DNA from: Acidobacteriota bacterium
GTDB taxonomy: Bacteria; Acidobacteriota; Vicinamibacteria; Vicinamibacterales; CAVVIG01
Reading direction: 5' to 3'
Length of the DNA: 43,530 nt
NCBI GenBank assembly: GCA_028876655.1
Contig: JAGWRA010000093.1
Location: forward strand, 1 to 43,530
This document shows positions 1,414 through 27,415 of the stretch, one piece after another. The notes beneath the pieces were generated by a model, which did not search any database, was not told the DNA's origin, and saw only the letters and a program-made list of their open reading frames with translations. The first letter of the stretch is position 1. Every line of letters starts with the position of its first letter. The translations under genes were made by a program, and so were the position numbers.

Positions 1414-4400
1414 ATGTGGATTGTCCGTATCGCGCTGAAGCGGCCGTACACCTTCGTGGTGCTGGCCCTCCTGCTCCTCATCATCGGCCCGATCGTCATC
1501 GCGCGCACGCCGGTCGACATCTTCCCCAACATCGACATTCCGGTCGTCGCGGCCATCTGGAAGTACGACGGCCTCTCCGCGCAGGATCTCGCCAACCGGA
1601 TCACGTCGAATTACGAGCGGACGCTGACGACGGCGGTCAACGACATCGAGCACATCGAGTCGCAGACGCTGAACAGCGTCTCGATCGTCAAGGTCTTCTT
1701 CCACCCGGGCGCGGCGGTCGACCTGGCGGTGGCGCAGGTGGCGGCGATCTCGCAGACGGTGCTGCGCCAGGCGCCGCCGGGGACGGTGCCGCCGTTCATC
1801 GAGGTCTACAGCGCGTCGAGCGTGCCGGTGCTGCAGCTCGGGCTGTCGGGGCCGGGGCTGTCCGAGCAGCAGCTGAACGACATCGGGACGAACCTGCTGC
1901 GGAACCAGCTGGCGACGGTGCAGGGGGCGTCGATCCCGTATCCCTACGGCGGCAAGCAGCGGCAGATCCAGGTCGACCTGAACCTGGCAGCGCTGCAGGC
2001 CCACGGGCTGTCGCCGCTCGACGTCCAGAACGCGATTGCGGCGCAGAACCTGATCCTGCCGGCGGGCGTGACGAAGATCGGCCCGTTCCAGTACGAAGTC
2101 GACATCAACGGCAGCCCGCAGACGGTGGCCGAGCTCAACAACCTGCCGATCAAGGTCGTGGGGCAGACGCCGATCTACGTCCGGGACGTGGCGCACGTGC
2201 GCGACGGCTTCTCGCCGCAGACCAACATCGTCCGGGTGAACGGGCGCCGGGCGGCGCTCGTGACGGTGATGAAGAGCGGGAACGCGTCGACGCTCGACAT
2301 CATCTCGCGCGTGAAGGCGGCGCTGCCGCAGCTGAAGGCGGCGCTGCCGGCGAACCTGCAGATCACGCCGCTGCTCGACCAGTCGCTGTTCGTGCGGGCG
2401 TCGATCGAGGGGGTGCTGCGCGAGGCGCTGATTGCGGCCGCCCTGACGGCGCTGATGATCCTGGTGTTCCTGGGGAGCTGGCGCAGCACCCTCATCATCG
2501 CGGTGTCGATCCCCCTGTCGATCCTGACGTCGATCGTCCTGCTGAGCGCGCTGGGCGAGACGATCAACATCATGACGCTCGGCGGGATGGCGCTGGCGGT
2601 CGGCATCCTCGTCGACGACGCCACGGTCGCCATCGAGAACATCAACTGGCACCTCGAGCAGGGGAAGGCGCTCGAGCCGGCCATCCTCGACGGCGCGCAG
2701 CAGATTGCCATCCCCGCCTTCGTGTCCACGCTCAGCATCTGCATCGTCTTCGTGCCGATGTTCTTCCTGAGCGGCGTGGCGCACTACCTGTTCGTGCCGA
2801 TGGCCGAGGCGGTGGTCTTCGCGATGCTCGCCTCGTACTTCTTCTCGCGCACGCTGGTGCCGACGATGGCGAAGTACCTGCTGCACGCGCACGTCCAGCA
2901 CGACGGCCCGCCGCCGCCCTCGCGCAACCCGTTCGTCCGGCTGCAGCGGGCCCTCGATGACGGCTTCCTCGCCATGCGCGCCTGGTACCGCGGCACGCTC
3001 GAGCGCTGCGTCCGGCGGCGCGGCCTGCTCGCCGGCGCCTTCCTGCTGGTCTGCGCCGTGTCGTTCGCGCTGGTGCCGTTCGTCGGGGAGGATTTCTTCC
3101 CGACCGTCGACAGCGGGCAGTTCAAGCTGCACCTGCGGGCGCCGACCGGCACGCGCATCGAGGACACGGCGGCGCTGTGCGACCGGGTGGAGCAGGCGCT
3201 GCGGCAGGTGATCCCGCCGCGCGAGATCCGGAGCGTCATCGACAACATCGGGATCCCCTACAGCGGCATCAACCTGTCGTACAGCAACTCGGCCCCCGTC
3301 GGCATGGAGGACGCCGACGTGATGGTCGCCCTCACCGAGGACCATCACCCGACGGCGGGCTACGTCCACGACCTGCGCCTGCGGCTGCCGGAGGAGTTCC
3401 CGGGGGTCCAGTTCAGCTTCGTGCCGGCCGACATCGTCAGCCAGATCCTGAACTTCGGCCTGCCGGCGCCGATCGACCTGCAGGTGGTCGGCCGTGACGT
3501 CCAGGCGAACCGCTGGGTGGCGGCCGGCCTGGCGCGCCGCCTGGCGCGCGTGCCCGGCGTCGTCGAGGCGCGGGTGCAGCAGCCGTTCAACCAGCCGGTG
3601 CTCCACCTCGACGTGGACCGGACGCGCGCGGCGATCGAGGGGCTGACGCAGCGGCAGATCGCGAGCAACCTGCTGATCTCGCTGAGCGGCAGCGTGCAGA
3701 CCGCGCCGGCCTTCTGGCTGGATCCGCGCAACGGCGTCAGCTATTCGGTGGCCACGCAGGCGCCGCAGTACCGGATCGCCTCGCTGCAGGACCTGGGCAA
3801 CATCCCGGTGGCGGGCAACGACGGCGGGCCGCAGGAGGTGATGCAGGGCGTCGCGACGATCTCGCGCGGCGACGTGCAGGCGGCCGTGTCGCACTACAAC
3901 GCGCAGCCGGTGCTGGACGTCTTCGGGGCGGTGCAGGGGCGCGACCTCGGCAGCGTGATGCGGGCGATCGCGCCGATCGTGGACGCGGCGCGGCAGCACC
4001 TGCCCCGCGGGTCGCAGATCATCGAGCGCGGCCAGATGGAGACCATGCAGTCGTCGTTCGCCGGGCTGCTCGGCGGCCTCGTGCTGGCGATCGTGCTGGT
4101 CTACCTGCTGATCGTCGTCAACTTCCAGTCGTGGCTCGACCCGTTCATCATCATCTCCGCGCTGCCGGCGGCGCTGGCCGGCATCGTCTGGCTGCTGTTC
4201 CTGTCGCACACGACCTTCAGCGTGCCGGCCCTGACGGGCGCGATCATGTGCATGGGGGTCGCCACGGCGAACAGCATCCTCGTCGTCAGCTTCGCGAAGG
4301 ACGAGCTGCACCGCGGCCGCCCGGCCGTCGCCGCCGCCGTGGACGCGGGCTTCACCCGGTTCCGCCCCGTGCTGATGACGGCGCTCGCGATGATCATCGG

Positions 4401-5811: not shown

Positions 5812-7274
5812 TGGGCCGCCATCGCACGGCGCCGGCGTGGGGGCTGCTGCTGGCGGCGGCCTGGACCGCCGGCTGCGCGGTCGGGCCGAGGTACGTCGCG
5901 CCCGCGGTGACCCCGCCTGCGGCCTATAAGGAGACGCCGCCGGCCGACGCCGGGAAGGACTGGGCCGCCGCTCGTCCCGCGGATGCCGTCGCGCGCGGGG
6001 CCTGGTGGACCGTCTACGGCGATCCCGCGCTGAACGGCCTCGAGGCGCAGATCGAGGCCGGCAACGAGACGCTGAAGGCGGCGCAGGCCCGTTTCCTCCA
6101 GGCGCGGGCGCTCGTCCGGTCCGCGCGCGCGGCGTACCTGCCACAGGTCGGCGCAGCTGCCGGCGTGACGCCCGGGGCGCAGTCGGGCAACAAGCCGCTG
6201 CGCAGCCCGCTCGCCCCGCGGACCTACACCGACTACCTCGTGTCGGGCGACGTCTCGTGGGAGCCCGACCTCTGGCAGCGGATCGGGCGGACCGTCGAGG
6301 CAAGCCGCGCCGCGGCGCAGGCGAGTGCCGCGGACGCGGAATCGGTCCGGCTCGCGCTGCACGCCGAATGCGCCGTCGACTACTTCGTGCTGCGCGGTCT
6401 CGACGCGCAGAAGCAGTTGCTGGACGACTCGGTGGCGGCGTACGAGAAGACACTGGAGCTGACGCAGGCCCGGCACGCCGGCGGCCTGGCCTCCGGGGCC
6501 GACGTCGCCCAGGCCGAGACGCAGCTCGAGACGACGCGCGCGCAGGACATCGACACCGACGTGCAGCGGGCGCAGGTCGAGCATGCGATTGCGGTGCTGG
6601 TCGGGCAGCCGGCCTCCACCTTTTCGATCGCCCGGCGGCCGCTGACGACGCCGCCGCCGTCGATCCCGCCGGGTGTGCCGTCGCAGCTGCTCGAGCGCCG
6701 GCCGGACATCGCCGCCGCCGAGCGGCGCGTGGCCGCCGCGAACGCCGAGGTCGGCCTGGCGCAGGCGGCGTACTACCCGCTCGTGCTCTTGAACGGGGCT
6801 GGCGGGTTCGAGGCTGGTTCCATTGGCGACTGGTTCAGGGGCCTGAGCGCGTTCTGGTCGCTGGGGCCTGCGGCGGCCATGACCGTCTTCGACGGTGGCC
6901 GGCGGCGGGCGGTGTCCGAGCAGGCGCGCGCCGCGTACGACCAGGCGGTGGCCGGCTATCGCCAGACCGTGCTCGAGGCGTTCGAGGAAGTGGAGGACAG
7001 CCTGGTCGCGCTGCGGGTGCTCGGCGTCGAGGCGAAGACGACCGATGCGGCGGTGGCAGCCGCACAGCGCTCGCTGGCGCTGGCGATGAGCCGCTACCGC
7101 GGCGGCGTGGCGAGCTACCTGGAAGTGACGGCGGCGCAGACCGCCGCGTTGTCCGACCAGCGGACGGCGGTCGGCATCCTCACGCGGCGGATGACGGCGA
7201 GCGTCCTGCTGATCCAGGCGCTCGGCGGCGGCTGGAACGCTTCGACGCTTCCCTCGGGTAACCCGGGACCGTAG
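5811..7274 (+). CDS. Outer-membrane efflux factor (TolC/NodT family lipoprotein)
   Basis: This is the outer-membrane channel of the tripartite RND system, 487 residues. The N-terminus has a basic start, a hydrophobic stretch and a lipobox ending TAGC (Cys about residue 21), then GPRYVAPAV, the usual NodT/OprM mature start. Two OEP repeats are visible. The first contains WWTVYGDPALNGLEAQIEAG and the second contains LLERRPDIAAAERRVAAANA, the strongly conserved signature of the family. The C-terminal half includes VFDGGRRRAVSEQARAAYDQA. The start ATG overlaps the adaptor stop. The stop TAG at 7272-7274 is also the first triplet of a 7-bp-periodic array. Confidence 0.95.
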   Translation: MGRHRTAPAWGLLLAAAWTAGCAVGPRYVAPAVTPPAAYKETPPADAGKDWAAARPADAVARGAWWTVYGDPALNGLEAQIEAGNETLKAAQARFLQARALVRSARAAYLPQVGAAAGVTPGAQSGNKPLRSPLAPRTYTDYLVSGDVSWEPDLWQRIGRTVEASRAAAQASAADAESVRLALHAECAVDYFVLRGLDAQKQLLDDSVAAYEKTLELTQARHAGGLASGADVAQAETQLETTRAQDIDTDVQRAQVEHAIAVLVGQPASTFSIARRPLTTPPPSIPPGVPSQLLERRPDIAAAERRVAAANAEVGLAQAAYYPLVLLNGAGGFEAGSIGDWFRGLSAFWSLGPAAAMTVFDGGRRRAVSEQARAAYDQAVAGYRQTVLEAFEEVEDSLVALRVLGVEAKTTDAAVAAAQRSLALAMSRYRGGVASYLEVTAAQTAALSDQRTAVGILTRRMTASVLLIQALGGGWNASTLPSGNPGP

Positions 7275-7320
7275 CCCCGAAGCCCGTAGCCTGCAGCCCG
7301 GAGCCCGTGGTCCGTCACCC
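7272..7320 (+). repeat. Heptad array 1 (7-bp periodic, seven units)
   Basis: Seven consecutive 7-base units with consensus GNAGCCC run from the stop codon of the efflux gene to just before the AraC promoter. Units read tagcccc, gaagccc, gtagcct, gcagccc, ggagccc, gtggtcc, gtcaccc. The register is unbroken while the sequence drifts. It lies between two same-strand genes and does not code. Confidence 0.8.
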
Positions 7321-8236: not shown

Positions 8237-9784
8237 ATGTCCACCCTGTTCGCGACCAAGCCGATCGACCGCCTCCTCGCTGACGCGGGGCAGGACGGCC
8301 GCCATGGCCTGAGGCGGAGCCTGGGCCCGATCAACCTGATCTCGCTCGGCATCGGCGCCATCATCGGCGCCGGCATCTTCGTGTTCACCGGCACCGCCGC
8401 CGCGCAGTTCGCCGGCCCGGCGATCGTCATCTCGTTCCTGCTGGCCGGCGCCGGCTGCGCCTTTGCGGGGCTCTGCTACGCCGAGTTCGCCTCGCTGATC
8501 CCCATCGCGGGGTCGGCGTACACCTACGGCTATGCGACGCTCGGCGAACTGGTCGCCTGGATCATCGGGTGGGACCTGATCCTCGAGTACGCGTTCGGGG
8601 CGGCGGGGGTGGCGGCCGGCTGGAGCGGCAACCTCCAGAGCCTGCTGCAGGACTACGGCTATCACCTGCCGCCCGCGCTGATGGCGACGCCGGGGACGCC
8701 GCTCGTGCTGTGGCACGGGCGCTGGGAGATCCTGGGGTCGGTGCAGCCGGCGATTCTGGCGGCGGGCGTCGATCCGGCGGTCCTCCCGCACGCGACCGGC
8801 GCGTTCGACCTGCTGGCCTGCCTGGCGATCGCCTTCGTCACCGCCATTCTCGTGCTCGGCATCCGCGAGTCGGCGAACCTGAACACCGGCATCGTCGCGG
8901 TGAAGGTGGGGACGGTGCTGATCTTCATCGCGGTGGTCGGCGTGTTCCTGTTGCGGCACCCGGGGGTGGCGATCCGCAACTGGCATCCGTTCATCCCGCC
9001 GAATGCCGGCGCCTTCGGCGACTACGGCTGGTCGGGCATCGGCCGCGGCGCCGCGGTGATCTTCTTCGCCTATATCGGCTTCGATGCGGTGTCGACGGCC
9101 GCGCAGGAGGCGCGGAACCCGCAGCGCGACATGCCGGTCGGCATCCTCGGGTCGCTGGCGATCTGCACGGTGCTGTACCTGCTGATGGGGGCGCTGCTGA
9201 CCGGGGTCGTGAAGTACACGCAGCTGAACGTCGCGGCGCCGGTGGCGCTCGGCATCGATGCCACGGGGATCGCGTGGGGCAGCCTCGTGGTGAAGATCGG
9301 CACGTTCGCCGGCCTCGGGACGACGATGCTGGTGATGCTGATGGGGCAGTCGCGGGTGCTGTTCACGATGTCGCGGGACGGCCTGCTGCCGGCCTGGTGC
9401 GGCCGCGTGCACCCGCGGTTCCGGACGCCGTGGATCTCGTCGATCGTCGTCGGCCTGTTCGTGGGGCTGTTCGCCGCGCTCGTGCCGATCGGCGTGCTCG
9501 GCCAGTTGACGAACATCGGCACGTTGCTCGCCTTCATCATCGTCTGCGCCGGCGTCTGGGTGCTGCGCGTGCGGCGCCCCGACCTGCCCCGGGCGTTCCG
9601 CACGCCGTGGGTCCCCTTCGTGCCGATCGCGGGGATCGTCATTTCACTGCTGCTGATGCTGAGCCTGCCGATCGACACCTGGCTGCGGCTCTTCGCCTGG
9701 CTGGCGATCGGGCTGGTCGTCTACTGGCAGTACGGCCGGTGGCACAGCCGGGTGAGGGGGGAAGCGGAGAGGTCTGTAACGTAG
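8237..9784 (+). CDS. APC-superfamily amino-acid permease (CAT-like)
   Basis: This is a cytoplasmic-membrane amino-acid transporter of 515 residues with about 12 membrane helices. The first helix carries the APC core motif SLGIGAIIGAGIFVFTG, whose unwound Gly-rich segment binds the substrate backbone. Helix 2-3 has CYAEFASLIPIAGSAYTYGY and helix 6 has FFAYIGFDAVSTAAQEARNP, both typical of the cationic-amino-acid-transporter subgroup (YfnA/CAT). Substrate cannot be fixed from sequence. GGGAG eight bases upstream supports the ATG at 8237, and TACCCT at 8214-8219 is a possible -10. The last residues (SVT) and the TAG stop lie inside the first units of a 7-bp-periodic array, so the array has supplied the end of the reading frame. 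Confidence 0.93.
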   Translation: MSTLFATKPIDRLLADAGQDGRHGLRRSLGPINLISLGIGAIIGAGIFVFTGTAAAQFAGPAIVISFLLAGAGCAFAGLCYAEFASLIPIAGSAYTYGYATLGELVAWIIGWDLILEYAFGAAGVAAGWSGNLQSLLQDYGYHLPPALMATPGTPLVLWHGRWEILGSVQPAILAAGVDPAVLPHATGAFDLLACLAIAFVTAILVLGIRESANLNTGIVAVKVGTVLIFIAVVGVFLLRHPGVAIRNWHPFIPPNAGAFGDYGWSGIGRGAAVIFFAYIGFDAVSTAAQEARNPQRDMPVGILGSLAICTVLYLLMGALLTGVVKYTQLNVAAPVALGIDATGIAWGSLVVKIGTFAGLGTTMLVMLMGQSRVLFTMSRDGLLPAWCGRVHPRFRTPWISSIVVGLFVGLFAALVPIGVLGQLTNIGTLLAFIIVCAGVWVLRVRRPDLPRAFRTPWVPFVPIAGIVISLLLMLSLPIDTWLRLFAWLAIGLVVYWQYGRWHSRVRGEAERSVT

Positions 9785-9914
9785 AACGGAGAACGCATAA
9801 CGGAGAACGAAGAACGAAGAACGAAGAACAGGGGCAAGGGGCAAGGGGCGAGGGGCAAGGGTAAAGGGGCAAGGGGTGTCCCTTGTCCCTCCTTCCTTGT
9901 CCCTTGTCCCTGAC
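9774..9914. repeat. Heptad array 2, mirrored, between convergent genes
   Basis: The array is 7-bp periodic with two unit families and one mirrored block. From 9774 the units end in AAC (ctgtaac, gtagaac, ggagaac, gcataac, ggagaac, then gaagaac three times). After one extra base at 9830 come GGGGCAA-type units to 9879. From 9880 to 9914 the complementary type runs (cccttgt, ccctcct, tccttgt, cccttgt, ccctgac). The G-rich and C-rich halves can fold into a long hairpin. It sits in the whole gap between the convergent permease and amidase genes, where a two-way terminator would be expected. Confidence 0.85.
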
Positions 9915-11659: not shown

Positions 11660-11771
11660 CCCATGCGACGTGCTGGGTGCCTGGTGCAACGTGCGGCCCA
11701 TCCGTGCGGAGTGCCGGGTGCGTTGAGCAGCGCGCGATACCCGTTGCGCGTTGCCCGTTGCCCATTGCGAC
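11660..11771 (-). repeat. Heptad array 3, upstream of the amidase
   Basis: Sixteen consecutive 7-base units keep one register for 112 bases. The first units end in GTGC on the plus strand (gacgtgc, tgggtgc, ctggtgc, aacgtgc). After more degenerate units the last are TTGCCCG-like (ttgcgcg, ttgcccg, ttgccca, ttgcgac). The array begins 31 bases upstream of the amidase ATG. If the -10 box at 11893-11888 is used, it lies in the amidase leader. Its right end closely resembles array 4 at 19397-19431. Confidence 0.8.
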
Positions 11772-11887
11772 GCCTCTCCCCCGCGAGCGCCCGAGCCCCT
11801 GAGCGACGGACATGGAGATCCGGAGCGAGGCATCGGCGTCAGTTCGCGGCGGGGGTGGGGCCCCGCCGCCACCGAAGAATGCGAGCG

Positions 11888-19377: not shown

Positions 19378-19396
19378 GGGAAGCCGGCGGGCCCCC

Positions 19397-19431
19397 GACC
19401 CATTGCCCGTTGCCCGTTGCGCATTGCGACG
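19397..19431 (+). repeat. Heptad array 4, between protease gene and hypC
   Basis: Five 7-base units (gacccat, tgcccgt, tgcccgt, tgcgcat, tgcgacg) lie 20 bases after the protease stop and just before the hypC Shine-Dalgarno. The end CATTGCGACG and the CCGTTGCCCGTTG core are also found in array 3, 7.7 kb away, so this is a dispersed element. Confidence 0.75.
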
Positions 19432-19448
19432 AGCGGAGGAGGACGGCC

Positions 19449-19709
19449 ATGTGCCTCGCGATTCCCGGGAAGATTCTCGACGAACGGACCGATAACGGCA
19501 TCCGGTCCGGCCGCGTGCAGTTCGGCGGCATTACGCGGGATGCATGTCTGGACTTCGTGCCCGACGCCGGCGTGGGCGACTACGTGCTGGTGCACGTCGG
19601 GTTCGCCATCAGCCGGGTCGATCGCGAGGAGGCCGAGCGGACCTACCAGCTGCTCGAGTCGATGGGCGTCCTCGAGGAGGAACTGGCGCCGGGGGACGGC
19701 GCGGCCTGA
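19449..19709 (+). CDS. hypC: Hydrogenase maturation factor HypC
   Basis: This small chaperone with HypD carries the Fe(CN)2CO group and delivers it to the large-subunit precursor. It has 86 residues, the usual size. It begins MCLAIPGKI, with the functionally essential Cys2 exposed after Met removal, then ISRVDREEAERTYQLL near the C-terminus. GGAGGAGGA just upstream of ATG 19449 decides the start; the longer frame from 19353 reads through heptad array 4 and is not coding. It is flanked by heptad arrays on both sides, which separates it from both the hya-like genes and hypD. Confidence 0.96.
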   Translation: MCLAIPGKILDERTDNGIRSGRVQFGGITRDACLDFVPDAGVGDYVLVHVGFAISRVDREEAERTYQLLESMGVLEEELAPGDGAA

Positions 19710-19725
19710 GGGCACCCAGTCGACG

Positions 19726-19907
19726 TGGCAATGGGCAATGGGCAATGGGTATTGCCCGCGCCCGGCGCTCGGAACCCGACGGTCGAATGAGCATCGCACG
19801 TCGCACGGACAAGGTCGCACGTCGCACGTTGCACCCCGCACCCTGCACGTGACAAGTCTTGCCCCGGACGTCGGACGTAAGGGAATGGACGTGGGACGTC
19901 GGACGTC
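19726..19907 (+). repeat. Heptad array 5, largest, between hypC and hypD
   Basis: Twenty-six consecutive 7-base units hold one register for 182 bases while the motif changes in blocks. It opens with GGGCAAT units (tggcaat, gggcaat, gggcaat, gggtatt), passes through degenerate units, then GCACGTC units (gcacgtc, gcacgga, gcacgtc, gcacgtt, gcacccc, gcaccct, gcacgtg). It ends with GGACGTC units (ggacgtc, ggacgta, agggaat, ggacgtg, ggacgtc, ggacgtc). It stops 14 bases before the hypD start and fills nearly all of a 212-base gap that would otherwise be a within-operon junction. Confidence 0.85.
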
Positions 19908-19921
19908 ACTGGAGGAGGCCC

Positions 19922-21034
19922 ATGAAGTACGTCGACGAATATCGCGATCCGAAGCTGGCCCGCGCGCTCGTCGCCGACATCGCCCGCCGGACCTCGCGCG
20001 ACTGGGTGCTGATGGAGATCTGCGGCGGCCAGACGCACACGATCATGCGCTACGGCATCGACGAGCTGCTGCCGCCGGGGCTCGAGCTCGTCCACGGACC
20101 CGGCTGCCCGGTCTGCGTGACGCCCATCGAGACGATCGATAAGGCGGTGGAGATCGCCTCGCGGCCCGACGTCACCTTCGTCTCCTACGGCGACATGCTG
20201 CGCGTGCCGGGCTCGCACACCGACCTGCTACGTGTGAAGGCGCGGGGCGGGGACGTGCGGATCGTGTACTCGCCGATGGAGGCGCTGGTCCTGGCGCGGG
20301 CCAATCCCGATCGCCAGGTGGTCTTCTTCGCCGTCGGCTTCGAGACGACGGCGCCGGCCAACGCCATGGCGGTCTGGCAGGCCCACCGCGAAGGGCTGAC
20401 GAACTTCTCGATGCTCGTGTCCCACGTGCTCGTGCCGCCCGCGATCCGGCTGCTGCTCGAACAGTCCACCAACCGCGTGCAGGGGTTCATCGCGCCGGGG
20501 CACGTCTGCACGGTGATGGGCTACCGCGAGTACGAGGACCTGGTGCGCGACTACCGCGTGCCGATCGTCGTCGGCGGGTTCGAGCCGGTCGATCTGCTCG
20601 AGGCGATCCGGATGCTGGTGGCCCAGCTCGAGGAGGGCCGTGCCGAGGTCGAGAACCAGTACGTCCGCTCGGTGACCGCCGAGGGGAACCTCCCCGCGCA
20701 GCGGGTGATGGAACAGGTGTTCGAGGTCGGCGACATGAAGTGGCGCGGCGTCGGCCTCATCCCGCAGAGCGGCTTCCGCCTGCGGCCCGCGCTGGCCGCC
20801 CACGACGCCGACCGGATCTTCGGCCTGTCGACGGTGAGCGCCGACGAGTCGCCGGAGTGCATCGCCGCCCAGGTGCTGCAGGGGCTGAAGAAGCCGGTCG
20901 ACTGTCCGGCGTTCGGCACGCGCTGCACGCCCGAGCAGCCGCTCGGCGCGCCGATGGTCTCGAGCGAGGGCGCCTGCGCCGCCTACTTCCAGTACCGGCG
21001 CCACGCCATGGAGCCGGCAGGGTCCCGCCGATGA
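19922..21034 (+). CDS. hypD: Hydrogenase maturation protein HypD
   Basis: This [4Fe-4S] scaffold protein works with HypC to assemble the Fe(CN)2CO moiety. It has 370 residues, the normal length. Conserved elements are visible in order: [28 protein letters not shown] (the CPVC pair), [26 protein letters not shown], and the C-terminal cluster cysteines in [20 protein letters not shown] and [18 protein letters not shown] lies just before ATG 19922, directly after the end of heptad array 5. Its TGA overlaps the hypE ATG (ATGA). Confidence 0.97.
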
Positions 21035-23120: not shown

Positions 23121-25429
23121 TGAATGTCCGTCGCGAGATCGCCGTCGCCGGCCTCGTGCAGGGCGTCGGCTTCCGGCCGCACGTCTTCCGGCTCGCGCAC
23201 GCCCACGGCCTGACCGGCACCATTACCAACACCAGCGGCGGGGTCGTCATCGAGGTGCAGGGGCCGGTCGAGTCGGCCGACGCGTTCCTCGCGCAGCTGC
23301 AGGACGAGCCGCCGCCGCTCGCCCGCCTCACGTCCGTGATGGTGCGCGACCTCCCCTGCGTGCCGGAGGACGACTTCCGGATCCTCGCGAGCCGTGCGGC
23401 GCCGGCCGCGCGCACGGTCGTCCCGCCCGACGTCGCGCTGTGCGACGACTGCCTGCGCGAACTGCTCGATCCGGCGGATCGCCGCTACCGCTACCCGTTC
23501 ATCAACTGCACCAACTGCGGGCCGCGCTTCACCATCGTCCGGGACGTCCCGTACGACCGGCCGCAGACGTCGATGGCCGTCTTCCCGATGTGCCCGGCCT
23601 GCCAGGCCGAGTACGACGACCCGATGAACCGGCGCTTCCACGCGCAGCCGAACGCCTGCCCGGCCTGCGGCCCGCGCCTCACGCTGCTCGACGGCCAGGG
23701 ACGGCCTCTGATCGTCGACGACCCGATTCGCGACACCGTTCGGCGTCTCGCAGCCGGTGAGATCGTCGCGATCAGGGGGCTCGGCGGGTTCCACCTCGCC
23801 GTCGACGCGCGGCAGCCGGCAGCCGTGCAGCGGCTGCGCGATCGCAAGCACCGGATCGAGAAGCCGTTCGCCGTGATGGTCCCGTCGCTCGCCGCCGCCG
23901 AGCGGATCGTGGAGGTGGATGCGGCGGCGCGCGCCCTGCTCACGGGGTGGGAGCGGCCGATCGTGATCCTGCCGCGGCGCGATGGAGGCGCCATTCCCGA
24001 GGTCGTGGCGCCCGGGAACCGGTTCCTCGGCGTGTTCGTGCCGTACACGCCGCTGCATCACCTGCTTTTCGCCGATGGAGCGTTCGAGGCGCTGGTGATG
24101 ACCAGCGGCAACCTCAGTGAGGAACCGATCGCCATCGGCAACGACGAGGCAGTGGGCCGGCTGGCCGGGATCGCCGATGCCTTCCTCGTCCACGACCGCG
24201 AGATCCTGCGGCGGTGCGACGACTCCGTCGTGACCGTGGCGGCGGGGGAGCCTCGGGTGCTGCGGCGGGCGCGCGGGTTCGTGCCGGTGCCCGTCCAGCT
24301 GCGCGAGCCGGTCCTGCCCGTGCTGGCGGCCGGCGCGGAGCTGAAGAACACGATCTGCCTGGCCGCCGGCGATCGTGCGTTCCTCAGCCAGCACGTCGGC
24401 GACATGGAGAACGTCGAGAGCCATCGCTTCTTCGACGAGGTGGTCGAGCACTTCCAGCGGATCCTCGACGTGCGCCCCGGGACGGTCGCCTGCGACCTGC
24501 ACCCGGACTATTTTCCGACCCGCTGGGCGCAGGCCCTCGGCGACGTCCGGCTGATCGGCGTGCAGCACCATCACGCGCACCTCGCCGCCTGCATGGCGGA
24601 GAACCACCTGGACGGGACCGTCATCGGCATCGTGCTCGACGGCACGGGGTACGGCACCGACGGGCGGATCTGGGGCGGGGAAGTGCTGGTCGGCGGCTAC
24701 GCGTCGTTCGATCGCGCCGGCCACCTGGCCTACGTGCCGATGCCGGGCGGCGAGGCGGCGGTTCGCGAGCCGTGGCGGATGGCGGTCAGCTATCTCGCGC
24801 CCCAGCTGGATGCCGAGGCGTGCGTGGCGGCGCTTCGGTCGTTCGGGGCGGGCGGCCCGGTGGAGGCCTCGCAGGTGCGGTTCGTACGGCAGATGATCGA
24901 CCGGGGCGTGAACGCGCCCCTCACATCGAGTGCCGGGCGGCTGTTCGACGCGGTCGCGGCGCTCGCCGGCCTCCGATCGCGCGTCACGCACGAGGCGCAG
25001 GCGGCCGTCGCGCTGGAGATGGCCGCCCGGGACTCACGCGACACGGTGGCCTATCCACTCGACCTCGCGTGGCGATCCGGCGGCCCATGGCTCGTGGAGC
25101 CGCGGCCGCTGGTCCGCGCCATCCTCGACGATCGAGCGGCGGGCGTGGATGCGGCCGGCATCGGCCGCCGCTTCCACAACGGCCTGGCGCTGGTGCTCGC
25201 GCGTCTGGCGGGCCTGATCCGGCAGGAGACGGGGCTCGGCCGCGTCTGCCTGAGCGGCGGCTGCTTCCAGAACCGCACGCTGCTCGAGTCGCTGCTGGCC
25301 GAGCTGCGCGCGGCGCGCTTCGAGGTGTTCGCGCACCGCGAGATCCCGTGCGGTGACGGGGGCCTCAGCCTCGGGCAGGCGCTGGTGGCGGCCGCCACCG
25401 TCACTGCAGGTGGAACGGCACGCTCGTGA
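23117..25429 (+). CDS. hypF: Carbamoyltransferase HypF
   Basis: HypF makes the carbamoyl group for the cyanide ligands from carbamoyl phosphate and ATP, and passes it to HypE. It has 770 residues, full length. Domains in order: acylphosphatase (VQGVGFRPHVFRLAHAHG, about 10-95); two zinc fingers (CDDCLRELLDPADRRYRYPF, INCTNCGPRF, MCPACQAEYDDPMNRRFHAQ, CPACGPRL, about 107-190); a YrdC-like domain (about 200-390); and a Kae1-like domain with GVQHHHAHLAACMAEN and LDGTGYGTDG, ending at PCGDGGLSLGQA. ATG 23117 overlaps the hypB stop. The 3' end overlaps the 3' end of the convergent kimA gene by 29 bases. Confidence 0.97.
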   Translation: MMNVRREIAVAGLVQGVGFRPHVFRLAHAHGLTGTITNTSGGVVIEVQGPVESADAFLAQLQDEPPPLARLTSVMVRDLPCVPEDDFRILASRAAPAARTVVPPDVALCDDCLRELLDPADRRYRYPFINCTNCGPRFTIVRDVPYDRPQTSMAVFPMCPACQAEYDDPMNRRFHAQPNACPACGPRLTLLDGQGRPLIVDDPIRDTVRRLAAGEIVAIRGLGGFHLAVDARQPAAVQRLRDRKHRIEKPFAVMVPSLAAAERIVEVDAAARALLTGWERPIVILPRRDGGAIPEVVAPGNRFLGVFVPYTPLHHLLFADGAFEALVMTSGNLSEEPIAIGNDEAVGRLAGIADAFLVHDREILRRCDDSVVTVAAGEPRVLRRARGFVPVPVQLREPVLPVLAAGAELKNTICLAAGDRAFLSQHVGDMENVESHRFFDEVVEHFQRILDVRPGTVACDLHPDYFPTRWAQALGDVRLIGVQHHHAHLAACMAENHLDGTVIGIVLDGTGYGTDGRIWGGEVLVGGYASFDRAGHLAYVPMPGGEAAVREPWRMAVSYLAPQLDAEACVAALRSFGAGGPVEASQVRFVRQMIDRGVNAPLTSSAGRLFDAVAALAGLRSRVTHEAQAAVALEMAARDSRDTVAYPLDLAWRSGGPWLVEPRPLVRAILDDRAAGVDAAGIGRRFHNGLALVLARLAGLIRQETGLGRVCLSGGCFQNRTLLESLLAELRAARFEVFAHREIPCGDGGLSLGQALVAAATVTAGGTARS

Positions 25430-27239
25430 CGACGATGTCCGGCTGGAAGAGCAGCGCCCCCTTGATGAGCAGCGCCCGCTGGTTGTGGAAGATCGCCTGC
25501 CACCAGTGCTTCGGGACGAACTCGGGCAGCAGCACGGTCAGGTAGCTGTCGGGATGTGTCTTCTGGACCTGCTCGATGTACTCGAGCAGCGGTTCCATCA
25601 GCGATCGGTACGGCGAGTCGAGCACGACGAGTTTCACCCCCTCGCCCCACGTCTCCCAGTCCTGCCGGATCCGCTGCGTCACGGCCGGCTCCACGTCCAC
25701 GTAGGTGGCGTAGACGTCGGGCGAGAGCGACCGGGCGTACCGCAGCGCCTGCACGACCGCGCGGTGGATGCCGCCGACGGGCACGATGACGATGTTGTGC
25801 CTCACCGACTCGGGCACGAAGCCCCGCAGACTGAGCTGGCTGGCCACGTGGTCGTAGTGGGTGCGTGTCATCCGGAACAGGCCGACCAGGCAGGGGATCA
25901 GCACGATGACGATCCAGGCGCCCTCGGCCGCCTTCGTGGCCGCCACGATGATGAGCACGACGCCGGTGAGCACGGCGCCGACGCCGTTGATGGCCGCGCT
26001 CGTCTTCCAGCCCGGCGTCCCGAGCCGCCGCCAGTGGATCACCATGCCGGCCTGCGAGAGCGTGAAGGAGACGAAGACGCCGATCATGTAGAGCGGGATC
26101 AGGGCGTGCGTGTCGCCCTCGAAGACCACGAGCAGCAGGCTGGCGAAGGCGCTCAGTACCAGGATGCCGTTCGAGAAGGCGAGGCGGTCGCCCTGGTTCA
26201 TGAACTGCCGGGGCAGGAAGCCGTCGGCCGAGACCACCGACGCCAGCCGCGGGAAGTCCGCATAGGCGGTGTTCGCCGCCAGCACCAGGATCAGCATCGT
26301 CGCGACCTGCACGGCGTAGTAGGCGGCGTTCCGGCCGCCGACCAGCGCGCGCGCGATCTGCGAGATGACCGTTTCCTGGTTCGACGGGATGATGTGGTAC
26401 GCGTGGGCGAGCAGCGTGATGCCGACGAACATCGTGATCGCCAGGACGGCCATCGCGCCGAGCGTCGCCGCCGCGTTCTCCGACGTCGGGTCGCGGAAGG
26501 CCGGCACGCCGTTCGACACCGCCTCGACCCCCGTCATCGCCGTGCAGCCGTTCGAGAAGGCCGTGAGGATCGCGAACAGGCCCAGCGTGTGGACGGTGCC
26601 GATCGCGACCGGGTTCACCGGGGTTGGCGGCGTCAGCGTGCCGGTGGCGTACCGCACGACGCCCACGGCCAGCAGCACCAGGATGCTGCCGATGAAGAAG
26701 TAGGTCGGCACGGAGAACAGGCGGCCCGACTCGCGGATGCCGCGGAGGTTGCCGATGGCGAGCACCGCCACGCACACCAGGGCGATCAGCACCCGGTCGC
26801 CGTGCAGGGTGGGCACGGCCGACGTGATGGCCGCCACGCCGGCCGCCACGCTGACCGCCACGGTCATCGTGTAGTCGATGAGCAGCGAGGCGGCGGCGAT
26901 CAGCCCGGCAGTCCGCCCCAGGTTCTCGCGCGCGACGATGTAGGCGCCGCCGCCGTTCGGATAGGCGTGGATCGTCTGCCGGTACGAGAAGACCACGATG
27001 GCCAGCAGCAGCGCGATGCAGACGGCAATCGGCGTCGCGAAGCTCAGCGCGGCGACACCGCCGACGATGAGCACGCGCAGGATCTCCTCGGTCGCGTAGG
27101 CGACCGACGAGAGGGCGTCCGACGAGAGGACGGCCAGACCCGTGACGCGCGAGAACCGTTCGTGATGGGCGAGATGAGTGGGGATCGGGCGCCCGATGAA
27201 CAGGTGCTTCAACTGGGAGAGCAGGCGCTCTTCCGACAT
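25401..27239 (-). CDS. kimA: KimA-type high-affinity potassium importer (APC family)
   Basis: This K+/H+ symporter is of the APC fold and resembles B. subtilis KimA (formerly YdaO). It has 612 residues. The N-terminus matches KimA closely (LKHLFIGRPIPTHLAHH, then LAVLSSDALSSVAYATEEIL). The core continues with FSYRQTIHAYPNGGGAYIVA and LLIDYTMTVAVSVAAGVAAI. Twelve helices are followed by a cytoplasmic tail of about 150 residues with RHNIVIVPVGGIHRAVVQAL, the Usp-like part of KimA. ATG 27239 has GGAG upstream; the longer frame to 27383 is riboswitch RNA, not protein. Family knowledge says c-di-AMP inhibits such importers at both RNA and protein level. Here a ydaO-type riboswitch directly precedes the gene. 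Its end overlaps hypF on the other strand. Confidence 0.92.
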   Translation of the reverse strand: MSEERLLSQLKHLFIGRPIPTHLAHHERFSRVTGLAVLSSDALSSVAYATEEILRVLIVGGVAALSFATPIAVCIALLLAIVVFSYRQTIHAYPNGGGAYIVARENLGRTAGLIAAASLLIDYTMTVAVSVAAGVAAITSAVPTLHGDRVLIALVCVAVLAIGNLRGIRESGRLFSVPTYFFIGSILVLLAVGVVRYATGTLTPPTPVNPVAIGTVHTLGLFAILTAFSNGCTAMTGVEAVSNGVPAFRDPTSENAAATLGAMAVLAITMFVGITLLAHAYHIIPSNQETVISQIARALVGGRNAAYYAVQVATMLILVLAANTAYADFPRLASVVSADGFLPRQFMNQGDRLAFSNGILVLSAFASLLLVVFEGDTHALIPLYMIGVFVSFTLSQAGMVIHWRRLGTPGWKTSAAINGVGAVLTGVVLIIVAATKAAEGAWIVIVLIPCLVGLFRMTRTHYDHVASQLSLRGFVPESVRHNIVIVPVGGIHRAVVQALRYARSLSPDVYATYVDVEPAVTQRIRQDWETWGEGVKLVVLDSPYRSLMEPLLEYIEQVQKTHPDSYLTVLLPEFVPKHWWQAIFHNQRALLIKGALLFQPDIVVTSVPFHLQ

Positions 27240-27251
27240 CTGCGAGCTCCA

Positions 27252-27402
27252 ACCGCCGACGAGGTTAGCTGACGGGCTCGGGGTTGGAACTCCCCTACGC
27301 CGCCCGGGCTCGAAGGAGGCCGGGCCGGCGATACGCCCCGGGAAGGACGGGCCTTCCTGTGGGTCCCCCGCACCGGCGGGCACGTGGCCGCCGGTTTTGG
27401 CA
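27252..27402 (-). promoter_or_regulatory. ydaO-type c-di-AMP riboswitch controlling kimA
   Basis: The minus-strand leader carries the conserved blocks of the ydaO/yuaA riboswitch in order. They are a 5' CCAAAACCG (27400-27392), GGGGGACCCAC, an internal hairpin GGAAGG/CCTTCC (27357-27341), CGGGGCGTATCGCC, GTAGGGG paired with CCAACCCCG, and the hallmark GTCAGCTAACCTCGTCGG (27273-27256). The 5' CCAAAACCG can pair with CGGTTGG at 27255-27249. That segment overlaps the first two G of the kimA Shine-Dalgarno GGAG (27250-27247). Ligand binding could therefore hide the ribosome site, a translational switch. No T-rich terminator is visible. Family identity is clear; the mechanism is inferred. Confidence 0.88.
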
Positions 27403-27409
27403 ACGCCTC

Positions 27410-27415
27410 ATCATA
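27410..27415 (-). promoter_or_regulatory. -10 box of the riboswitch-kimA transcript
   Basis: TATGAT on the minus strand, five of six matches, predicts a transcription start near 27403. That is directly at the 5' edge of the riboswitch aptamer. The -35 region is not clear. Confidence 0.55.

Follow-up and report, generated by a model that had tools for sequence, protein, structure and literature searches.

An array of seven-base repeats at the hypC-hypD junction as the probable gene-less derivative of an S23 mobile element family

Results

An array of seven-base units separates hypC from hypD

The DNA analysed here (the window) is a stretch of 43,530 nucleotides from an Acidobacteriota bacterium, and it makes up one whole contig of a draft genome of 4.19 Mb in 281 contigs. 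It carries a hypC-like and a hypD-like gene, which are separated by an array of tandem heptads (Table 1). In five relatives that have hypC upstream, the start of hypD overlaps hypC by 4 bp, whereas the gap here is 212 bp; the array does split a tight hyp junction, as had been proposed. Because these relatives are only 61-66% identical in HypD, an exact target duplication is unreadable at this site.

Table 1. Positions of genes, repeat blocks and other features in the window
Feature	Position	Strand	Remarks
Heptad array (TAGCCCG/GAAGCCC)	7269-7316		Begins within the upstream gene's stop codon
Three-block heptad array (AACGAAG, AGGGGCA, TGTCCCT)	9774-9913		Last two blocks are near reverse complements
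GGGCAAC/GGGCAAT array, tip GGGTATCG, then GCAC-type heptads	11670-11773	-	Another copy
CATTGCC/CGTTGCC array	19388-19438	-	Between a hydrogenase protease-like gene and hypC
hypC-like gene	19449-19709	+	Lies between two arrays; not itself part of an element
Block A (TGGCAAT, GGGCAAT, GGGCAAT, GGGTATT)	19726-19753	+	GGGCAAT-type
Junction GCAATGGGTATTG	19742-19754	+	One of 44 copies in the genome; none in the reversed control
First transition, degenerate	19754-19795	+	Lag-7 matches 18/42
Block B, GCACGTN-type heptads	19796-19851	+
Second transition	19852-19872		Lag-7 matches 7/21, near chance
Block C, GGACGTN-type heptads	19866-19907	+
hypD-like gene	19922-21034	+
c-di-AMP (ydaO/yuaA) riboswitch	27238-27412	-	52.2 bits

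Over positions 19726-19907 the identity at lag 7 is 0.566, and it falls to 0.458 (lag 14), 0.429 (lag 21) and 0.39 (lag 28). Dinucleotide shuffles of the same stretch gave a mean of 0.27 (sd 0.033), and no lag between 2 and 30 brought any of the 2000 up to the observed identity, which confirms the seven-base periodicity. Neighbouring units are more alike than distant units, and the similarity decays with distance along the array. The original prediction read 26 units in one unbroken register, passing from GGGCAAT to GCACGTC and then to GGACGTC. The blocks follow one another as described, except that the first unit is TGGCAAT. The transitions between them are weak, however, and the succession of a GGGCAAT block and a GCACGTN-type block recurs at 11670-11773 and at another locus (L048) with a different phase between the two, as read from the sequences. 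With weak transitions and an unconserved block phase, the unbroken register is not established; the seven-base beat stands.

Heptad arrays are frequent in intergenic DNA and pair as inverted repeats

Periodicity was scanned in 712 kb of the 4.19-Mb genome, taken in contig order, with genes called by a simple codon-usage method. Lags 7, 14 and 21 stood out in intergenic DNA (z 11-15). A strong lag-7 stretch was present in 27 of the 266 intergenic regions, and in none in five shuffles; apart from 7 and its multiples, no lag exceeded 3. The scan gives the intergenic lag-7 peak that the original prediction had set as its own check. The units are diverse (GGGCAAT, GGGCTAC/GAAGCCC, GGGATTC, CAGAACT, AACTGAC and others). 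These results support the suggestion that the array and the four others of the window (Table 1) belong to a class of elements spread through the genome, constant in period and variable in unit.

Among linked arrays (non-coding arrays less than 1 kb apart), 32% of the pairs had reverse-complementary units (score ≥0.55), compared with 4% of unlinked pairs. Direct pairing was not enriched (18% versus 20% at a score ≥0.45). One inverted pair enclosed a gene for a four-helix-bundle S23/IVP protein (PF05635).

The arrays lie near stop codons (median distance 19 bp, versus 86 bp to start codons), and few of them are seen between divergent genes (3/80 versus 25/207). Such placement would suit arrays that are selected for their period, as a protein-binding site or as an RNA element past stop codons (a terminator, an RNA-stability element or a G-quadruplex), and the G-rich heptamers found in Xanthomonas and Nostoc are able to fold into quadruplexes (PMC4692102). 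Purging of insertions at other positions would nevertheless lead to the same placement, the fold of the window array does not surpass that of its shuffles, and filled and empty alleles coexist in closely related plasmids (see below). Selection for period alone, which had been offered earlier as one explanation, also leaves unexplained the inverted complementary arms around S23 genes and their arrival together with the gene. We regard this reading as very improbable.

S23 genes lie between complementary heptad arms

Four PF05635 (23S_rRNA_IVP, S23) genes were found in the genome, all on contigs other than the window, and all four are flanked by inverted heptad arms whose unit differs at each locus. 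Flanks were complementary (score ≥15) at 46 of 66 usable S23 loci (70%) from relatives of the same order and at 44 of 75 (59%) from named organisms of many phyla. When left and right arms were mismatched, only 1.0% and 0.9% of the pairs, respectively, were complementary, and the value for 378 other ORFs in the same loci was 2.1%. The S23 genes were the best-scoring or pattern-matched ones, so that the percentages apply to the sampled sets rather than to all S23 genes; a third or more of them had no clear arms.

In 90 arms the mean autocorrelation was 0.57-0.59 at lag 7, 0.52-0.53 at lag 14 and 0.47-0.48 at lag 21, and it did not exceed 0.34 at any other lag. The best period was 7 in 64 arms, 8 in 11, 9 in 6 and 10 in one, with none clear in 8, and the G-rich arm was the 5′ arm in 76 of the 90. 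Across S23 cassettes, then, the unit sequence is free, and period, complementarity and polarity are mostly kept. Five cassettes (L086, L101, L103, L158 and L159) have arms of period 9 or 8 that are still complementary. A genome-specific period, of 7 in one genome and 9 in another, was rejected, since cassettes of a single genome (G023) show both 7 and 9. The longest complementarity seen, a perfect one of 150 nt, belongs to an S23 gene with CAGTTCT flanks in a Terriglobia MAG (L185, ~3001-3312). S23 genes were also looked for in phages, and none was found. Two relatives of S23 have solved structures, 2GSC (XCC0516) and 2RLD; the Xanthomonas campestris protein consists of four-helix bundles that form a pentamer, and the family has been described as having no known function (PMC4990558).

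Arms and S23 gene arrive together in cyanobacterial plasmids

Closely related cyanobacterial plasmids provide filled and empty alleles of the same sites. An S23 cassette is present in L315 and L319 at a junction that reads AAAAAGTAATTAACAAATAAATATG in the empty allele L318, which is 97.9% identical over the sequence shared with the filled allele. The latter consists of AAAAAGTAAT, the cassette and GTAATTAACAAATAAATATG, with (G)TAAT on both sides, and relative to L318 the insertion measures 428 bp in L315 and 414 bp in L319. At a second site, L331 and L332 carry an insertion of ~417 bp relative to the empty L333 and L334, and TTCTA stands on both sides in L331. A target duplication of about 5 bp is thus readable at these two junctions only. 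Heptads are absent from the empty alleles at both sites, from which it can be deduced that the arms and the S23 gene arrived together. Presence and absence of S23 were also seen when L310 was compared with L324/L325, L316 with L337, and L330 with L335/L336/L338, at junctions that are not clean.

The arms differ in length by 14 bp between L315 and L319 and by 7 bp between L312 and L313. Close homologues are exactly one or two units (7 or 14 bp) apart in arm length, in support of the earlier suggestion of growth in steps of seven. One S23 lineage with the same arms occupies at least three different sites (L315, L330 and L331). The S23 junction of L312/L313 has no element in L321/L322, and an S23-less heptad element in L323. 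Four further loci (L326-L329, about 790-1000) have the arms of the L315 element around a different, non-coding core with many short inverted repeats; an Rfam search of the elements of L326-L328 returned no match.

Across the plasmid elements Rfam gave no credible family, and the miRNA-named matches all fell on one long hairpin. This near-perfect hairpin lies between plasmid genes in L312 (6055-6163), its many miRNA matches are all below gathering scores, and it is possibly another gene-less element. In two type I-D CRISPR operons, S23 genes with repeat arms lie between cas6 and cas4 (L316, 2983-3351; L317, 2989-3348); L337, which is 99% identical to L316, has no S23 gene at the cas6-cas4 site and carries another insert of ~245 bp.

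Gene-less arrays tend to accompany S23 genes

Elements that share these arms but enclose only a short loop or some other core, and no S23 gene, are more numerous than S23 cassettes. When relatives were compared, array-bearing intergenic regions (lag 7) amounted to 29/282 in eight S23-bearing genomes, with the source genome left out, and to 2/168 in six genomes without detected S23 (Fisher P 8e-5). A genome-level Mann-Whitney test that included the source genome gave P 0.015; both values come from few genomes and are not corrected for phylogeny. Of the two array-bearing regions in genomes without detected S23, one, in G030, is a genuine GGGATTC array, and the second looks like a missed coding region. 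Another relative (G050) has 12 S23 genes and no array in the 80 kb sampled.

Heptad hairpin arrays might instead arise by themselves in many genomes, through slippage or microduplication in sevens, and S23 elements might merely prefer to insert there. The published intervening sequences do sit in 23S rRNA helices (PMC4990558), arrays that lack S23 are far more numerous than S23 cassettes (some 50 arrays in 712 kb versus 4 S23 genes in 4.2 Mb), and L323 has an S23-less element at the site where L312 and L313 carry S23. A preference of this kind does not account for the empty alleles, in which two plasmid sites lack heptads, for the lineage that carries the same arms to at least three sites, or for the near absence of arrays from S23-free relatives. 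We consider this alternative unlikely.

The window array resembles a decayed copy of the element

The unit of block A is also the unit of the 5′ arm of an S23 cassette in the same genome (contig C18, locus L072). The 13-bp non-repetitive junction GCAAYGGGTATYG occurs at 44 places in the genome, one of them beside the S23 gene on C18, and at none in the reversed control. The bases adjoining its copy in block A can form a GGGCAAT-GGGT-ATTGCCC hairpin, and the first transition is partly like GCTCAGGCGCTCG, the sequence that follows GGGT at other copies. A non-repeat junction common to 44 places indicates that an element was copied, rather than that slippage occurred independently.

The alternative is that local replication slippage and copying of short neighbouring tracts built the window array in place, the shared units being convergent. 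The decay of unit similarity along the array and the whole-unit differences between homologous arms would fit such a process, and that part of the original prediction which had nearby tracts copied from one another is consistent with nearby units being more alike. Slippage does not produce a shared non-repetitive junction, though, and it is inverted, not direct, pairing that is enriched among linked arrays. Local drift as the main cause of the unit change is not upheld, and the shared junction leads us to reject it as the whole story for block A; only blocks B and C could still be explained in this way. As an account of the array we judge it very improbable.

We conclude that the window array is probably a worn, gene-less copy of an S23 mobile element family. 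Tandem 7-bp units, the shared junction and absence from the same site in relatives are all found here, and the S23 gene is not: since the window contains no PF05635 match, the array is not itself an S23 cassette and is claimed only as a gene-less derivative. The arm opposite block A is a single ATTGCCC unit. Block C may be the opposite arm of block B, a pairing that the sequence leaves ambiguous because ACGT is self-complementary. Given the missing gene, the one-unit opposite arm and a fold like that of shuffles, the case for membership in the family is made by the unit and the junction that it shares, together with its context. In their succession the blocks resemble a patchwork of element copies. 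A gene-less copy would have landed on the 4-bp gene overlap and then decayed, and a second, ACGT-type copy would adjoin the block A copy.

hypC is flanked by same-family arrays (19388-19438 and 19719-19759) in outward orientation; the first belongs to the block A family and points away from hypC. These flanks are strongly complementary, with a score of 18 (only 3 of 452 genes reach ≥16). hypC was considered as cassette cargo, and this was rejected: the flanking arrays match, but their polarity (C-rich, then G-rich) is opposite to that of cassettes, which makes two separate copies around hypC likelier.

Discussion

The intact element, as seen in relatives and in cyanobacterial plasmids (where the cassette is ~0.42 kb), is about 0.4 kb long and consists of a 5′ arm of mostly 7-bp tandem units, the S23/IVP gene and a reverse-complement 3′ arm. 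It inserts between genes, often just past a stop codon, with the ~5-bp target duplication seen at two junctions, and its arms gain and lose whole units, as seen among the plasmids. S23-less elements would probably be mobilised in trans. Because left and right arms match and yet cassettes differ, each arm is presumably re-copied from the other, hairpin fold-back with slippage in unit steps being the simplest route. Either S23 or the hairpin may be recognised during movement. We know of no recombinase activity of S23. A reverse transcriptase was rejected as the general motor, since many genomes rich in S23 (e.g. G007, G010, G017, G029, G040 and G050) lack PF00078.

S23-bearing rRNA intervening sequences are already published. 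That of the Coxiella 23S rRNA, a 428-nt sequence with an S23 gene and a 28-bp terminal inverted repeat, has been called a selfish element, and the number of its tandem GACAGAT heptamers varies by strain (PMC4990558). Like the 23S rRNA intervening sequences with an S23/IVP ORF in Coxiella and Leptospira, the cassettes described here are small and have S23 between terminal inverted repeats. They differ in lying between protein genes, and in having empty alleles, target duplications, locus-specific heptad units and many S23-less relatives. The window array is likewise not in a 23S rRNA gene, and no rRNA family was found in the window. New here are the findings that linked arrays are inverted pairs and that the intact form flanks S23 genes.

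Heptamer repeats of Xanthomonas (GGGAATC) and Nostoc (PMC4692102) and TAACTGA repeats of Beggiatoaceae (PMC4679880) are described as intergenic and present in many copies of a 7-bp unit, with few between divergent genes. The available passages on these repeats and on the STRR type of heterocystous cyanobacteria describe one dominant unit and make no mention of S23 cassettes or arm pairing, whereas the source genome has many units. The window array shares with the STRR type the intergenic, multi-copy tandem 7-mers; a single dominant unit is not found, as there are several units per array. The contrast with cyanobacterial STRRs had nevertheless been drawn too sharply: S23 cassettes with heptad arms like those described here occur in heterocystous cyanobacteria, in Nostoc-type plasmids among others. 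In the open-access library that was searched, no paper was found that links intergenic heptamer repeats to S23.

REP/BIME sequences with RAYT (Y1) also combine a gene between inverted repeats with many gene-less intergenic copies. Here, however, the arms are tandem 7-mers, not single palindromes, and S23 is not a Y1 enzyme; a REP/RAYT system was rejected, the Y1 transposase (PF01797) being absent from the source genome. The S23-less elements such as L326-L329, with L315-type arms and another core, are gene-less and have terminal inverted repeats like MITEs, but no parent transposase has been identified, and their terminal repeats are tandem arrays whose unit changes between elements.

More tentatively, and with rather less than even confidence, we propose that S23 cassettes form, across the bacteria, one class of mobile element without a recognisable transposase, in which the S23 protein and the hairpin form the mobility system and recopying keeps the tandem 7-mer arms complementary, the heptamer repeats of cyanobacteria, Xanthomonas and other bacteria being gene-less debris. 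The main reading, of the arrays as gene-less copies of S23 elements, links the intergenic heptamer repeats scattered through genomes to the widespread S23/four-helix-bundle genes, both so far unexplained, and provides a likely source for scattered bacterial "junk" repeats. If it is right, what is annotated as simple repeats derives from a single family of mobile elements, array abundance should track S23, and S23 gains a testable role. A constant period with a free unit also poses a clean question about arm copying.

Elsewhere in the window, the c-di-AMP riboswitch (Table 1) lies directly upstream of a gene that resembles an APC-type transporter (25401-27239, minus strand).
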